A program made the position numbers and the translations under genes. A stretch of 36,599 nucleotides of DNA, taken from positions 1-36,599 of IMG/VR virus record IMGVR_UViG_3300030117_003071; one strand, 5' to 3'. Source of the stretch: a virus. Shown here in pieces: positions 829 through 33,746 of the stretch. Numbering within the stretch: position 1 is the stretch's first letter; the number at the start of each line of letters is the position of its first letter. Under the pieces are notes generated by a model that searched no databases, was not told the origin of the DNA, and saw only the letters and a list, made by a program, of their open reading frames with translations.

Positions 829-1341
829 TTGACTTCAATACAAGATTTAAAAAGCGACCATAAAAACGCTCGTAAAAGGACAGACCGTTCGTCCTTTTTA
901 ATCAAAGAATCATTAGAAAAATTTGGGGCTGCTCGGTCAATAGTTATAGATGAAGAAAACAGAATCCTTGCTGGCAATGGAACCATTGAAGGTGCAAAAG
1001 CAGCAGGAATAAAAAACCTTCGAGTGATAGAAACAGACGGCAAAGAAATTATTGCTGTAAAAAGAACTGGACTAACAGAGGAGGACAAAGTTGGTTTAGC
1101 TCTTGCTGATAATAGAACATCTGAGTTATCTGAATGGGATGCTCACATGCTTCAGGAACTAACTCAAGAACATGATATTTCTAGCTGGTTTGATTCTGAA
1201 GATTTAAAAGACTTAGGTGTAGAAGCACCTGATTTTAATCCTGCTTCTTTAGAAGATCAGGGTGACTTAGGCAAATTTGAGAAAAAAGAAATTAACTGTA
1301 CTTGTCCTAAATGTGGCTATGAGTTCATACAACAAATCTGA
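829..1341 (+). CDS. ParB-like (ParB/Srx fold) protein with C-terminal zinc ribbon
   Basis: This 170-residue protein has the ParB N-terminal nuclease-like fold. The N-terminus has the arginine-rich segment typical of the family (KNARKRTDRS, residues 12-21), followed by the ILAGNGTIEGAKAAG signature (about 45-59). The remainder is acidic and ends in a zinc-ribbon-like CTCPKCGYEF (about 157-166). Phage ParB-like proteins of this size near terminase genes are often paired with DNA-modification genes; the biochemical role (DNA binding, nuclease or nucleotide-dependent switch) is not certain. The only credible start is TTG at 829, because the frame upstream has no ATG or GTG before the stop at 787. 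The end overlaps the Mom-like gene by 23 bases, suggesting translational coupling. It is the first gene of the rightward block. Confidence 0.75.
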   Translation: MTSIQDLKSDHKNARKRTDRSSFLIKESLEKFGAARSIVIDEENRILAGNGTIEGAKAAGIKNLRVIETDGKEIIAVKRTGLTEEDKVGLALADNRTSELSEWDAHMLQELTQEHDISSWFDSEDLKDLGVEAPDFNPASLEDQGDLGKFEKKEINCTCPKCGYEFIQQI

Positions 1342-1984
1342 TCTGCATCTTAACTGGGCAAATTATGCTGCAGTTCTTTATGCTTGTAAAAAGTGGCACT
1401 ACTCCAAAAGTGTACCTACTGGGAAATTAATTAAGGTTGGAGTTTGGGAAAAAGGTGTTTTTATTGGGTGTCTTGTTTACAGCAGAGGTGCTAATTACAG
1501 GATGCTTAATAAATACGGATTAAGACAAGATCAAGGCTGTGAATTAACACGGATTGCTCTTTCTTCTCATATAACAACTGTTTCTCGTATTCTTTCTATT
1601 TCTTTGAAGTTTCTTAAAAAAAGCAGTCCTTCTCTTCAGTTGGTTGTTTCCTATGCTGATCCTATGCAAGATCATCATGGGGGTGTTTATCAAGCAAGTA
1701 ATTGGATTTATTCAGGCTTGAGCAGTCCTGCACCTCAATGGTGGTTTAAAGGTAAATGGGCACACAATAAAACAGTTTACGAGTCTAAGTTATCCAAATC
1801 TGAGAAAAGTAGGTTAAAGCGTCGTGTCGTTCCGGGTAAACACACTTATCTAATGCCTCTGACTTCTCAAATGAGGGAGAAAGCTCTATCCTTATCAAAG
1901 CCCTACCCTATGCGTCTGAAGCAGGTTCAAGTCAGTACCCCTGACACGAACGGAGGGGCAGCACCTACCCAGACGCTTTTATGA
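1319..1984 (+). CDS. mom: Mom-like DNA adenine modification protein
   Basis: The protein resembles phage Mu Mom, which converts adenine in DNA to N6-carbamoylmethyl-adenine and so protects phage DNA from host restriction. The region ACKKWHYSKSVPTGKL (about residues 22-37), the central GVFIGCLVYSRGAN and the later SYADPMQDHHGGVYQASNW match the GNAT-like Mom fold as I remember it. I chose the ATG at 1319 (MSSYNKSDLHLNW); the frame opens earlier at 1277, but that would add residues overlapping the ParB zinc ribbon. In Mu, the zinc-finger protein Com activates mom translation; here the preceding gene ends in a zinc ribbon and overlaps the mom start. Expression with the packaging genes would modify DNA just before encapsidation. 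Fairly sure of the family, not of activity. Confidence 0.75.
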   Translation: MSSYNKSDLHLNWANYAAVLYACKKWHYSKSVPTGKLIKVGVWEKGVFIGCLVYSRGANYRMLNKYGLRQDQGCELTRIALSSHITTVSRILSISLKFLKKSSPSLQLVVSYADPMQDHHGGVYQASNWIYSGLSSPAPQWWFKGKWAHNKTVYESKLSKSEKSRLKRRVVPGKHTYLMPLTSQMREKALSLSKPYPMRLKQVQVSTPDTNGGAAPTQTLL

Positions 1985-2003: not shown

Positions 2004-2324
2004 ATGGCTAAAAAGGGCACTAAAGCAGAAACAATCATAAGAGCACAAAAGTTTGCTCAGATTATTGCTAATGGTGGGAGAAGGTCAGATTGTGTTCAAT
2101 ATGCTTCAAATAAATGGGGGGTTAGTGCAAGAGCAGCAGATGAGTATTTAGCGATAGCTCGGGAAGCTTTGCAAAAGGATTGGGATCTTCAGCGACCTCA
2201 GATGGTGGCAGATCTTTTGAGTCAATGCAGCACCTTACAGATGGAAGCTAGAAGGGCTGGTCAATATCACATTGCTCTTGGTGCAATTAATACAGCAGCT
2301 AAATTAGCCTCTCTTTGCTCTTGA
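2004..2324 (+). CDS. terS: Terminase small subunit
   Basis: This 106-residue basic protein has an N-terminal helix-turn-helix-like segment (QIIANGGRRSDCVQYASNKWGV region, residues 18-40, followed by ARAADEYLAIARE) and a helical C-terminus, as in small terminase subunits that recognise phage DNA for packaging. It lies directly upstream of the large subunit and its stop TGA overlaps the TTG start of that gene. The start ATG 2004 follows an AT-rich stretch without a clear Shine-Dalgarno sequence. Position and fold support the call; sequence identity among small subunits is generally poor. Confidence 0.75.
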   Translation: MAKKGTKAETIIRAQKFAQIIANGGRRSDCVQYASNKWGVSARAADEYLAIAREALQKDWDLQRPQMVADLLSQCSTLQMEARRAGQYHIALGAINTAAKLASLCS

Positions 2325-3685
2325 ATATTCTCGAAGAATTACCAGCAGGTCACGTTTTATATCCTCAAGGATTTACTGCCTTTACTGTTTCACCTGAACA
2401 ACAAGCACAAGAAACAGATTTAGTTCGACAGCGTATTTTTGACGGCTTATTACATTATCAGCAAAATATTTGTAAAGACTTAGAACATAGAATTGTTGGA
2501 TTTTGTGCAGGTTATGGTGCAGGAAAGACAAGAACCCTTTGTGCATGGACTACCTTATGTGCTCTTGATAACCCCAATACGATTGGGGCTGTTTTCGCTC
2601 CTACTGGGGCTTTGGTTCGTGATGTTTTGCAGCGTTCTCTTGAAGAATTTTGGGAATCACATGACATCAACTATGAATACAGAGCCTCACCTTTACCCGA
2701 ATACAAACTAAATCTTCCTAATGGAGAAGTTACCGTTCTTTGCCGTTCAATGGAATCTTGGCAGAGAATCATAGGCGTGAACTTGTCTTTTATAGGTTCA
2801 GACGAGTTAGACACTACAAAATCGGACATAGGTCAGAGAGCTATTGAAAAATTCTTAGGCAGATTAAGAGCAGGGAATAGAAGACAATTAGGTCTTTTTT
2901 CTACTCCTGAAGGTTTTGGTACGTTCTATAATTTGTTTGTCCGAGAAGGTCACAAGGAAGACCGAGCACTCTTCAAAGCTCGAACGGCTGACAACCCTTA
3001 CTTGCCGCCTGACTTTCTACAAGCATTACTTGAAAATTATCCAGCTTCTTTAGTTCGTGCCTACACCGAAGGAGAATTTTGCAATCTTCAAACGGGAGCT
3101 GTTTACTGTCGTTTTAGTCGAGAAAAGCACGTAACTGAAGAAATGCCCGACCACTCAGAAGAAATTATTAGAGTTGGTTGTGACTTTAACGTTGGAAATT
3201 GCAACGCAGCAATCGGAGTAATCAGCAAAGGACATCTATACATTTTCGATGAAATAGGTGGTGCATATGACACAGACTCAATGGCTGACCAATTGCGAGA
3301 AAAGTTTCCGCACAATACGATCTACGCATATCCAGACGCTTCAGGTGGAAACAGATCAACAAATGCTGCTAAGACCGACATCGAATTATTGCAGCAAAGA
3401 AGAATTGTCAACTTGTCAGGTGCAAGCAATCCTTATGTCAGGGATAGAGTTGCAGCAGTTCAAGCAATGTTGCTTAATGGGAAAGAAGAAATAAGATTAC
3501 ATATTCATCCACGTTGTAAGAAAACAATTGAGTCTTTAGAGCTTCAGGCATATGCAGAAGATGGCACTCCAGATAAGACAATGAATCTGGATCACATGGC
3601 TGATTCCTTAGGTTATTTAATATGGAAGGAGTTCAATCCATTACACATGAACGTAGGGAGAGGAACGGGTATTAGAATTTATTAG
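2321..3685 (+). CDS. terL: Terminase large subunit (ATPase-nuclease packaging motor)
   Basis: The protein powers DNA translocation into the prohead and cuts the concatemer. The frame can be read from TTG 2315; numbering from there, Walker A GYGAGKT is at 66-72, Walker B LSFIGSDE at about 157-164 and motif III STPEG at 196-200. The C-terminal RNase H-like nuclease has GCDFNVGN (D290), AYPDASGG (D340) and a final HMADSLGYL. The length of about 455 residues is normal for Terminase_6-type large subunits. I favour the TTG at 2321, because it forms a TTGA overlap with the stop of the small subunit; 2315 is also possible. All catalytic motifs are intact. The gene is followed by a short gap and the portal gene. 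Confidence 0.95.
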   Translation: MNILEELPAGHVLYPQGFTAFTVSPEQQAQETDLVRQRIFDGLLHYQQNICKDLEHRIVGFCAGYGAGKTRTLCAWTTLCALDNPNTIGAVFAPTGALVRDVLQRSLEEFWESHDINYEYRASPLPEYKLNLPNGEVTVLCRSMESWQRIIGVNLSFIGSDELDTTKSDIGQRAIEKFLGRLRAGNRRQLGLFSTPEGFGTFYNLFVREGHKEDRALFKARTADNPYLPPDFLQALLENYPASLVRAYTEGEFCNLQTGAVYCRFSREKHVTEEMPDHSEEIIRVGCDFNVGNCNAAIGVISKGHLYIFDEIGGAYDTDSMADQLREKFPHNTIYAYPDASGGNRSTNAAKTDIELLQQRRIVNLSGASNPYVRDRVAAVQAMLLNGKEEIRLHIHPRCKKTIESLELQAYAEDGTPDKTMNLDHMADSLGYLIWKEFNPLHMNVGRGTGIRIY

Positions 3686-6469: not shown

Positions 6470-7159
6470 ATGCCAGAAGAAGCTACTGCTCCTGTGGAGC
6501 AAGCTGTCGATTCCGAAAAAGAGAATCTAAAAGCTGAATTAGAAGCAATGCGTAGGAAAAACGTAGAGCTATTAGATGATTACAAAAAAGCAAGAGAGAA
6601 AGCAAAAGCTGTCCCTGCTGACGTTGATGTTCAAGCCTTACTTGATTTCAAAGCAAAAGCTGAACAAGACGAATTAGAGCAGAAAGGAAAATACGGTGAA
6701 GCTAAACAAGCGTTAGAACAACAATATAGAGACAAATCATCAACAGACAAAAAACGAATAGAAGAACTTGAAGCCAAAATTCGAGAACTTGAATTAATTT
6801 CACCTGCAAGTCAAGCATTAGCTGAAATAGTCCATGACCCTAGTTTAGTTTTACAAAACTTTTTACCAAAAGATAAAATTGATATAGAAGAAGGTAAGCC
6901 AGTTGTTGTTGACGGATATGAGCGTATTCCTGTGGCTGAATGGGCCAAAACAAAGCTAAGAGAACAGGCTCCTTATTTGTTAAAACAACAGTCACCACAA
7001 GGAGGCGGAGCACCTGCTGGTAGAAGTTCAGGCGGTGAAATTCCTACTGGAACAAAAAACCCATTTGCACAAGAAACTTTCAATATTACAGAACAGATGA
7101 GGTTGTATAGAACTGACAAAGATTTATATGATCGCTTGAAAAATGCAGTTAAACGCTAA
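6470..7159 (+). CDS. Capsid scaffolding protein
   Basis: The protein, about 229 residues, is acidic and mostly coiled coil in its first 110 residues (KENLKAELEAMRRKNVELLD; RIEELEAKIRELELI). A flexible Gly-rich segment follows (GGGAPAGRSSGGE) and the C-terminus is short and basic (MRLYRTDKDLYDRLKNAVKR), the part that in scaffolds binds the coat protein. Position directly before the major capsid gene supports this role. ATG 6470 is preferred over GTG 6461, because the GTG lies in the loop of a small hairpin AACCC-TGT-GGGTT (6455-6467). Confidence 0.82.
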   Translation: MPEEATAPVEQAVDSEKENLKAELEAMRRKNVELLDDYKKAREKAKAVPADVDVQALLDFKAKAEQDELEQKGKYGEAKQALEQQYRDKSSTDKKRIEELEAKIRELELISPASQALAEIVHDPSLVLQNFLPKDKIDIEEGKPVVVDGYERIPVAEWAKTKLREQAPYLLKQQSPQGGGAPAGRSSGGEIPTGTKNPFAQETFNITEQMRLYRTDKDLYDRLKNAVKR

Positions 7160-31863: not shown

Positions 31864-32562
31864 TCAAGCTAATTTTTCAATAGCTTGCTGCAAAAATTGA
31901 CCATGTGAAGCAAGTGTTATGTGTTGTGGCGAAATTGAATCAGCCGAGATGTTGAACTCCTGTTTAAAAGCACTTAACACCTTTTTCTTTTTTAAATCAT
32001 CTAATGCTGAAATCTTGCTACCAATTTCTGCTTTAGCTGCTGGAGTCATAAAATCATTCTTTTTTTGCTCTACTTTCTTCACTTGTGAATCTGGTCTGGT
32101 TGGTGTTCTGCTAATGCCTGTTTTTTTTGGTGATAGCTCTTTTACATCACCTAGTTCTGTGTCTTGCTCAGTGTTAGTATCCATATCTGGTTCAATTCCA
32201 AGCAACATTTTTATTGCATATCGTCTTGAGTAGGTTTGACTTCCACCCCATGCAAACATAGGTTTTGCACCCATATTTTCAGGCAGAAAAAGAGGCAGTT
32301 CGCTTTTTATCTCTTCTCCAGACTCAACATGAATCAAACGGGTAACAATTAAAGTTTGACCATGATCGTTATAAGCTTGAGGCTGAATAAGAATCAAACC
32401 ATTAGCATGTAGAACAGGTTGAATTGATGAAATTAAATTTTCTAATGAGCAATATTTATATTGAAATTTACCCATCCCTGCTGTCTTGTCTTTTTTAATA
32501 TCAGGGAGTTGTTTTTGAAAGTTTAGAAGTGACTCATAGAGAGTCTTGTTTTTCTGTGCCAT
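31864..32562 (-). CDS. erf: ERF-family single-strand annealing protein
   Basis: The 232-residue protein has the ERF domain in its first 135 residues: SLLNFQKQLPDIKKDKTA, FQYKYCSLENLISSIQPVLH, GLILIQPQ, GQTLIVTRLIHVESGEE and FAWGGSQTYSRRYAIKMLLG. ERF proteins anneal single strands during phage recombination and genome circularisation. The C-terminus is variable and charged. It is driven by promoter P3, and ATG follows the leader motif ATCAACCAC by two bases. Its partners are the SSB-like protein and the nuclease and resolvase genes upstream. Confidence 0.9.
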   Translation of the reverse strand: MAQKNKTLYESLLNFQKQLPDIKKDKTAGMGKFQYKYCSLENLISSIQPVLHANGLILIQPQAYNDHGQTLIVTRLIHVESGEEIKSELPLFLPENMGAKPMFAWGGSQTYSRRYAIKMLLGIEPDMDTNTEQDTELGDVKELSPKKTGISRTPTRPDSQVKKVEQKKNDFMTPAAKAEIGSKISALDDLKKKKVLSAFKQEFNISADSISPQHITLASHGQFLQQAIEKLA

Positions 32563-32614: not shown

Positions 32615-33069
32615 TAAGATAAAGCAAAAGGTGTTATAAAAATGTTTGCTCCCAATAGTTCATCTTCCTTTGCATATCTTTTAATGGCCTTTAATGATAC
32701 CACCAAGCTGTCATCCTTGATAACAGTTCCTCCTGCCTTCGCTGATAATCCATCTAAAGTTGATCTACATAATTTGTCTATGTCTCCTGTTTGTGAACTT
32801 GTTACAAACTCAGGTGCTTTTTGTTTTAATTTGTTTGCATTTTTTCCTGTTCCAAAATGACTTTTTGGTCTAGCAAATAAAAACACAATTTCTATTTCTA
32901 CAGCTCTACCAATTACTAATCCTTCGTAATGATCTATGGCAGCAGCTCGAACATCTTGCCGCCAAGGTTTAACTTTCTTGCTGTTCTCAATCATAATTCC
33001 ATGACCAATATGTCTCTTGCTTCCTTGTGGAGCTGGAAGACCTCGAACAGGAATAAAAATTTTATCCAT
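32611..33069 (-). CDS. rusA: RusA-family Holliday junction resolvase
   Basis: The 152-residue protein fits RusA endonucleases: an N-terminal strand IPVRGLPAPQGSKRH, the acidic motif GDIDKLCRSTLDGL (D96 and D98) and KDDSLVVSLKAIKR (D119/D120), giving the conserved acidic triad. RusA cuts four-way junctions formed in recombination or before packaging. It begins with a one-base overlap with the nuclease gene, and its stop is part of promoter P3. Confidence 0.88.
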   Translation of the reverse strand: MDKIFIPVRGLPAPQGSKRHIGHGIMIENSKKVKPWRQDVRAAAIDHYEGLVIGRAVEIEIVFLFARPKSHFGTGKNANKLKQKAPEFVTSSQTGDIDKLCRSTLDGLSAKAGGTVIKDDSLVVSLKAIKRYAKEDELLGANIFITPFALSY

Positions 33070-33746
33070 TAAAAAACTTCAACCTTTTCTTCAAAAGCTT
33101 CCCAAGCTTCTTTCCATTTCAATCGACAAGTTAAAGGGTCTTGCTCTTCTCCAAAAACACATTTCCCTGGCCTTGCCCAAACTGTTCTACAACTATCAAC
33201 AACAATTCCATGATGGTTTGCGAGTGCGTCAACGTAACTTCCTAATTGAGCATCTGTTGAATAAGGTCTGGCGTTTTTCTTTGATTGCGTTTTTAAATCA
33301 ATTAAAACTAATTTTTGCAATGTGTGGTCATAACCCAAAAGATCAAATTGCCCACCTACTGATTTTTCTAAATCAGCCAGCATATATTCAACAGCCCAAG
33401 GCTCGAAGGTAGACCAATATTCATTTTCTAAAAGTGGAGTAACCCATTCTTCATAATCACCTGCATCTGGATTTTTTTCACCCAACATTCTTTGCTGTAA
33501 ACACCAATGCACTTTTTCACCTCTGGGCTGCCAGATATGTCTATATCTTTCAATGTTTGCTAAAGCTTCTGGACTCTTTCTACTTGCAATTTGTGTTGTA
33601 AAAAAAGCCAACCATTCACCTGTTGGCTCCCAACAATATTGGTGGCGTTCTTCATCCCGATACATGGGAAGAGGATCAAGCTTTAAATGACTCCAAGGTG
33701 GGTCACGGTGCAAGCTTGCGTTGTTGCTTAGTTCTTGATATTTCAT
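33069..33746 (-). CDS. PD-(D/E)XK nuclease (RecB/Cas4-like exonuclease)
   Basis: The 225-residue protein has H80 (GEKVHWCLQQ), E120 region, D135 in GGQFDLLGYD, then D150 and K152 in LVLIDLKTQSK, and Q167--Y171 in AQLGSYVD: the full RecB/Cas4-type motif series. It probably degrades one strand to supply substrate for the ERF annealing protein. It overlaps the small gene before it by four bases and RusA by one. No Cas4-type cysteine cluster is present. Confidence 0.85.
   Translation of the reverse strand: MKYQELSNNASLHRDPPWSHLKLDPLPMYRDEERHQYCWEPTGEWLAFFTTQIASRKSPEALANIERYRHIWQPRGEKVHWCLQQRMLGEKNPDAGDYEEWVTPLLENEYWSTFEPWAVEYMLADLEKSVGGQFDLLGYDHTLQKLVLIDLKTQSKKNARPYSTDAQLGSYVDALANHHGIVVDSCRTVWARPGKCVFGEEQDPLTCRLKWKEAWEAFEEKVEVF

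Follow-up and report, generated by a model that had tools for sequence, protein, structure and literature searches.

Genes and Features of the Locus

The stretch of viral DNA analyzed here (IMG/VR record IMGVR_UViG_3300030117_003071, positions 1 to 36,599; 36,599 nucleotides in full, hereafter "the window") carries a gene for a ParB-like protein, an overlapping mom gene and, over the 3' end of mom, a tRNA-Gly-like element (Table 1). An earlier reading made without database searches (the sequence-only reading) had placed the gene pair at the head of the packaging operon, and this position holds, the terminase large subunit, portal and MuF genes (Pfam, PHROG) all coming after it. Elsewhere in the window, an Erf-like annealing protein and an exonuclease of a recombination set are encoded on the minus strand at 31864–32562 and 33069–33746.

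Table 1. Positions of the genes, motifs and RNA arms of the parB-mom locus within the window
Feature	Position	Strand	Evidence or remark
ParB-like protein, putative Mom partner, 170 aa, TTG start	829–1341	+	PHROG 620, E = 1.3e-27
Single cysteine knuckle in the ParB tail, DQGxLDxxxxKxxxCxCPxCGxEF	1255–1338	+	C159, P160 and C162 invariant, also in distant homologues
Overlap of the parB and mom reading frames, 23 bases; ATG of mom inside the CGYEF codons, no Shine-Dalgarno sequence	1319–1341	+	
Mom-family GNAT-fold DNA modification enzyme, 221 aa, ATG start	1319–1984	+	Pfam PF25680; predicted fold as in 8bv8; S89
tRNA-Gly-like element over the mom 3' end; D-arm-less, U73, 3' CCA not encoded	1912–1980	+	Covariance model R1
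Acceptor stem, 5' strand GCGTCTG; 7 bp with CAGACGC at 1970–1976; U73 at 1977	1912–1918	+	
Anticodon arm, loop GTACCCC; anticodon ACC (Gly) at 1937–1939	1930–1946	+	
T arm GGAGG-GGCAGCA-CCTACC, one bulged A	1952–1969	+	
Beginning of the packaging operon: small ORF of unknown function (phrog_34910) and gene for the terminase large subunit	2004–3685	+	

PHROG 620 ("ParB-like partition protein") is the best PHROG match of the upstream open reading frame, and several related PHROGs match as well. In the Pfam search no model fires for this protein, ParB_N included; ParB_N does match its homologue in locus L007. The AlphaFold model (pLDDT 63) is too poor for use. The C-terminal end of the protein is INCTCPKCGYEFIQQI, and its three cysteines all lie within CTCPKC, which makes one knuckle. 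The sequence-only reading had described a ParB-like protein with a zinc ribbon; the ParB-like part stands on the PHROG 620 match, and the zinc ribbon does not, a single knuckle not being a four-ligand ribbon. Among the NCBIfam zinc families the closest to the tail is YnfU, at E = 0.0019, below the cut-off. In comparison with homologues the tail motif reads roughly F-x-P-x4-DQG-x-LD-x8-CPxCGxEF.

A survey of Mom neighbours for such proteins, suggested by the same reading, covered 140 mom loci, taken from phage records and from contigs of viruses and genomes. Upstream of mom, 117 of them have a ParB with CxxC near the C-terminal end, 5 a ParB lacking CxxC and 11 no ParB, the remaining 7 being truncated. 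The parB-mom arrangement is therefore not a matter of chance. The overlap of exactly 23 bases between the frame ending CTCPKCGYEF and the start of mom was confirmed, both frames being present as placed. Overlapping genes are found in 84 of the 97 loci with both ends placed (mostly by 14, 17 or 23 bases), and a Shine-Dalgarno sequence is absent from the mom start in 73 of 101. A mom start within the CGxEF codons, usually without a Shine-Dalgarno sequence, fits translational coupling, and mom translation is likely coupled to parB.

Mom of phage Mu is known to be translationally controlled (PMC6483171), and for the window a Com-like control of mom had been proposed, in which the cysteine tail of ParB would act as translational activator. 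The conserved overlap, the mostly missing Shine-Dalgarno sequence and the similarity of the tail to the second half of the Com ribbon agree with this. However, Mu Com is a four-cysteine ribbon which matches its own Pfam model, Zn_ribbon_Com, whereas the window ParB has one CxxC knuckle and no match to that model. Com-like proteins with both CxxC pairs precede Mu-like moms in other genomes, those moms being without ParB, so that Com belongs with the Mu-like lineage instead. ParBs of the same family also occur in tailless fusions with N6-methyltransferase-type domains or, CxxC-tailed, next to C5-methyltransferases, and the overlap is explained by simple coupling. The proposal was given up, and an activator of this kind is considered quite improbable.

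Owing to its pairing with both N6- and C5-methyltransferases, ParB seems to be a partner for DNA-modifying enzymes in general. In six loci (L069, L071, L072, L077, L083, L089) a ParB with the tail HRCPSCGYEW lies directly 5' of a C5-methyltransferase-like reading frame, and the cysteine tail is thus not specific for Mom. The phage ParB-methyltransferase fusions (PHROG 498) likewise have a ParB-type N-terminal domain working with a DNA-modifying enzyme, but they are single proteins with neither cysteine tail nor tRNA-like element.

The downstream gene product matches Pfam PF25680 (E = 1.1e-39, 136.7 bits, cut-off 27.1) and PHROG 1384 (E = 7e-53). Its AlphaFold model (pLDDT 89) agrees with the crystal structure of Mu Mom (PDB 8bv8; Foldseek E = 2e-11, Z = 20.1, rmsd 3.1 over 183 residues), as the sequence-only reading had expected of a structure prediction. 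The predicted catalytic serine, S89, aligns with S124 of Mu Mom, whose replacement by alanine gives an inactive enzyme, and is invariant in 10 diverse Moms. Sequence, predicted fold and conserved serine thus support the earlier suggestion of a Mom-type adenine modification in this phage. The nearest non-Mom structures to the model are CoA-dependent GNATs; no aminoacyl-tRNA transferase is among the fold neighbours listed, which carries no weight either way. According to the alignment, Mu Mom stops at PYPK, exactly where the C-terminal extension of the window Mom starts, and residues 201–221 of the latter are predicted by AlphaFold to be disordered. The Mu com-mom system shares with the window a homologous Mom of the same fold with the catalytic serine and a mom start overlapping the upstream gene. 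It differs in having four-cysteine Com instead of ParB, an 80-base overlap and no tRNA element, and the window Mom frame runs on into the tRNA.

The tRNA-Gly-Like Element and Its Link to Mom

Annotated tRNA-Gly genes beside mom in two phages led to inspection of the mom 3' ends. These are a tRNA-Gly(ccc) in Microbacterium phage Appa and a tRNA-Gly directly after mom in Salinibacter phage B2_17. In the window, the inspected region encodes the last 23 Mom residues, predicted to be disordered, and also forms acceptor, anticodon and T arms in the proper order, the D arm with G18-G19 being absent. The full bacterial glycine identity set is present. U33 is kept, yet the D arm is missing and the T stem is bulged. 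ARAGORN and Rfam report nothing at 1912–1980, and the sequence-only reading had not noticed the element. Most relatives encode 3' TCCA, unlike the window element. Between the window and its relative L012, 62 of the 69 element positions are identical, and the rest of mom is 63% identical.

By the first descriptor, at least three of four glycine features were found in 106 of the 140 mom loci versus 1 reverse complement (presumably the Appa tRNA), 2 upstream windows and 0 shuffles. Inspection by eye added at least nine loci that the descriptor had missed (L003, L009, L117, L134, L144, L172, L178, L190, L192), so that about 115 of 140 carry the element. Sampling of the loci is uneven, but at the level of Mom clusters (60% identity) the carriers number 19 of 26, the L012 cluster counted among them. 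In nearly all loci the element overlaps or touches the mom frame; in several it lies partly or wholly past the stop codon, and relative to mom it occupies all three reading frames (39/24/15). It is therefore the RNA, not a peptide, that is conserved.

In an alignment of 17 sequences, 99.3% of cells are paired and both-sided changes occur in 10 of 16 pairs; the covariation score is 0.528 versus 0.164 for shuffled and at most 0.114 for slid alignments. Across 56 non-redundant elements G1-C72, C2-G71, G3-C70 and U73 do not change, while each of the acceptor pairs 4–7 covaries among at least four pair types. C35 is kept in 55 of 56 elements, C36 in 53, and the bulged A of the T stem in 55. The experimentally known identity set of bacterial tRNA-Gly consists of U73, G1-C72, C2-G71, G3-C70, C35 and C36 (PMC9976931), i.e., the invariant and near-invariant positions of the element, and the RNA is therefore of the tRNA-Gly type. 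Its anticodons are mostly ACC or UCC, GCC being nearly absent. U33 is missing from 52 of 85 elements, in any glycine register found or any other, and is kept in about a third.

The family ranges from near-canonical tRNA-Gly through a long class with a D stem, mostly without GG, to the short, D-arm-less class. The near-canonical members are L158, called tRNA-Gly(acc) by ARAGORN, L257, matched by the Rfam tRNA model, and L093, also recognized by a standard finder.

Covariance model R1 was built from 17 short-class sequences with the window held out; it is limited to this class because MAFFT misaligned the long one. In the 36.6-kb window it finds the element at E = 1.6e-8, the next best site having E = 1.4. 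Applied to held-out mom loci, it locates the element at the mom 3' end in most of them; 69 ParB loci in which no mom is linked give no significant match. In a genome of 9.1 Mb one site is returned, at mom, and over 398 genomes only two further sites appear, L337 and L332. The L332 match (E = 9.9e-5) is a canonical, ordinary tRNA-Gly near tuf, and scores near 35 bits alone therefore cannot separate Mom-type from ordinary tRNA-Gly.

A search with the RNA pattern alone gives 119 viral loci, 106 of them with Mom in the adjacent 1.5 kb. In at least five of the non-adjacent loci (L238, L257, L268, L276, L314) the element stands just before a divergent Mom-family gene, and L270 has the same element as this set. 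The other loci without adjacent Mom are cut by contig ends or unclear, apart from L292, which is described below. The RNA pattern thus returns Mom genes almost exclusively.

The element is absent from Mu, Enterococcus phage phiEf11, chromosomal Paenibacillus, Yersinia/Serratia and actinomycete moms and from several other phage Moms; it belongs mainly to the ParB-linked Mom lineage. Both phiEf11 and Appa share with the window the parB-mom pair, the overlapping ends and the same ParB tail. They differ from it in that phiEf11 has no recognizable element and that the tRNA-Gly(ccc) of Appa is near-canonical and convergent to mom, not D-arm-less inside it. Firmicutes ParB-Mom loci without the element have a long hairpin after mom (L092, 3640–3750; L180, L183, L185, L188), for example GAGATAGCGG...CCGCTATCTC, which is possibly a terminator or another dedicated RNA.

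Nearly the same element occurs beside a divergent Mom, about 30% identical to that of the window, in L033 (4881–4949), L056 and L063. The L033 Mom matches PF25680 at E = 1e-48, and the ParB of this group has a different, cysteine-free tail. The RNA seems, therefore, to follow Mom more strictly than the ParB tail does. A planctomycete contig (L204) has a second copy of the element at 6692–6749, near-identical and standing alone, some 2 kb downstream of its mom.

The tRNA-Gly-like RNA itself is well established, as are its conservation and covariation, its glycine identity and its association with Mom. In the published, mostly open-access literature searched, no prior report of a tRNA linked to Mom was found.

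A Putative Glycyl-tRNA Donor and Alternative Explanations

The product of Mu Mom is N6-carbamoylmethyl-adenine, in which a glycine-derived group is joined to adenine N6 via the alpha carbon of glycine. The RNA keeps the features read by glycyl-tRNA synthetase, loses those read by the ribosome and is linked to Mom in both directions, and this combination is best explained if it serves as the glycyl donor of Mom. A dedicated non-translating glycyl-tRNA thus probably donates glycine to the GNAT enzyme Mom for adenine modification, with ParB as the DNA-side partner. From the features of the element and its neighbours we infer its charging, its processing, the glycyl transfer, the rearrangement and the role of ParB as follows.

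The locus would represent a Mom-type cassette of three parts, in which the GNAT enzyme Mom is joined by a ParB-like protein and by a dedicated tRNA-Gly that takes no part in translation and is encoded at the mom 3' end. The RNA could be excised from the mom transcript by tRNA-processing enzymes, with CCA added where it is not encoded. Charging with glycine could be performed by the host glycyl-tRNA synthetase, since the element retains the whole bacterial glycine identity set. The lost D arm, the bulged T stem and, in most relatives, the absence of U33 would exclude the RNA from EF-Tu and the ribosome. Mom would take the glycyl-tRNA as donor and transfer the glycyl group to adenine N6 of phage DNA. 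Because glycine is attached via its alpha carbon in the Mu product, simple acyl transfer would need an extra step. N6-glycyl-adenine and N6-carbamoylmethyl-adenine are isomers, and an intramolecular shift from N to N (Smiles-type), passing through a five-membered ring, could convert the former into the latter; this step is suggested on chemical grounds only. ParB, translationally coupled to Mom, may hold or direct the enzyme on DNA. Excision of an element lying within the reading frame would also truncate the mom message, which could be a built-in limit on the amount of enzyme.

A similar use of tRNA is described in Staphylococcus aureus, where non-proteinogenic tRNA-Gly species avoid EF-Tu and feed the Fem glycyl transferases (PMC4052509). 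Common to both systems are a dedicated tRNA-Gly, EF-Tu-avoiding features and a non-ribosomal glycyl transfer, which is proposed for the window. The acceptor of the Fem enzymes is peptidoglycan, whereas adenine in DNA is the proposed acceptor here. The window tRNA differs from its S. aureus counterparts in lying within the gene of the transferase and in lacking a D arm altogether, and features used in translation are relaxed further in its family than in S. aureus. U73 shields glycyl-tRNA from DTD, non-proteinogenic species included (PMC6097841).

Against the donor function stand the assumption in the literature that Mom uses an acyl-CoA such as glycyl-CoA (PMC7824862), the CoA-dependent GNATs as its closest non-Mom structures and the U33 kept by the window element. 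Some Moms have no such element, so the enzyme can do without it; their donor may be host glycyl-tRNA or something else. A regulatory or mRNA-processing signal is another possible role of the element. As a signal acting in cis, it would be cut by RNase P/Z, which would trim or destabilize the mom mRNA, make the message non-stop where the element sits inside the frame and so limit a toxic enzyme, glycine charging being incidental. Such a role agrees with the overlap or contact of the element with the mom frame in nearly all loci and with the translational control already known for Mu mom (PMC6483171). A cleavage signal, however, has no need for near-invariant C35 and C36, invariant U73 or the G1-C72 and C2-G71 pairs, and the element occurs upstream of the gene as well (the L257 group), on the opposite strand (Appa) and as the stand-alone second copy in L204. 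This explanation is therefore held to be unlikely, with a small though real chance of being correct.

An ordinary phage tRNA-Gly serving translation and lying near mom by chance would account for the near-canonical members L093, L158 and L257. It is very improbable for the family, in most of which the D arm is lost, the T stem has a bulged A and U33 is missing (52 of 85); ACC anticodons are common where GCC is nearly absent, and in the genomes the element and Mom are linked almost exclusively to each other. Temperate phages often carry pieces of tRNA genes as integration (att) sites, and the element could in principle be such a copy of a host tRNA gene. Instead of a piece, a whole tRNA is present, which shows covariation of its own and in which the D and T arms are degenerate; acceptor positions 4–7 vary freely between phages while the location is fixed at mom, and no integrase is seen beside the element in the window (Pfam, PHROG). 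An att site is hence extremely improbable, and a glycyl donor for Mom is retained as the preferred function.

Related Loci and Significance

Two loci carry the element beside other enzymes. In L292 (6275–6350, the same locus as L330) a DruA-family gene (PF14236, E = 8e-28), which has a ParB-like gene upstream of it, contains the element at its 3' end. This may hint at tRNA dependence of DruA-like proteins too. In L337 (3062–3128; also L338) a D-arm-less element of 56.5 bits stands upstream of the gene for a phage protein with DAM-like and GNAT-like parts (PF22555, PF22559), and a ParB-like gene lies downstream. Each of these two families is represented by a single locus; viral contigs yielded no close relatives of either protein beyond the same sequences.

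A general class may tentatively be proposed, at somewhat less than an even chance, in which non-translating glycyl-tRNAs of phages feed Mom, DAM-like plus GNAT and DruA-like enzymes, usually partnered by ParB, and glycine reaches adenine N6 via acyl transfer and rearrangement. If such a class exists, it would, to our knowledge, be the first case in which amino acids carried by tRNA are used on DNA.

Standard tools overlook a whole class of degenerate phage tRNAs that lies within coding sequence, and covariance model R1 provides a marker for finding related modification systems. With a dedicated glycyl-tRNA inside mom, the glycine source of Mom can be tested directly, and tRNA biology and DNA modification would be connected. 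The element beside mom suggests that this phage may decorate its DNA with glycine from a tRNA of its own rather than from a coenzyme.
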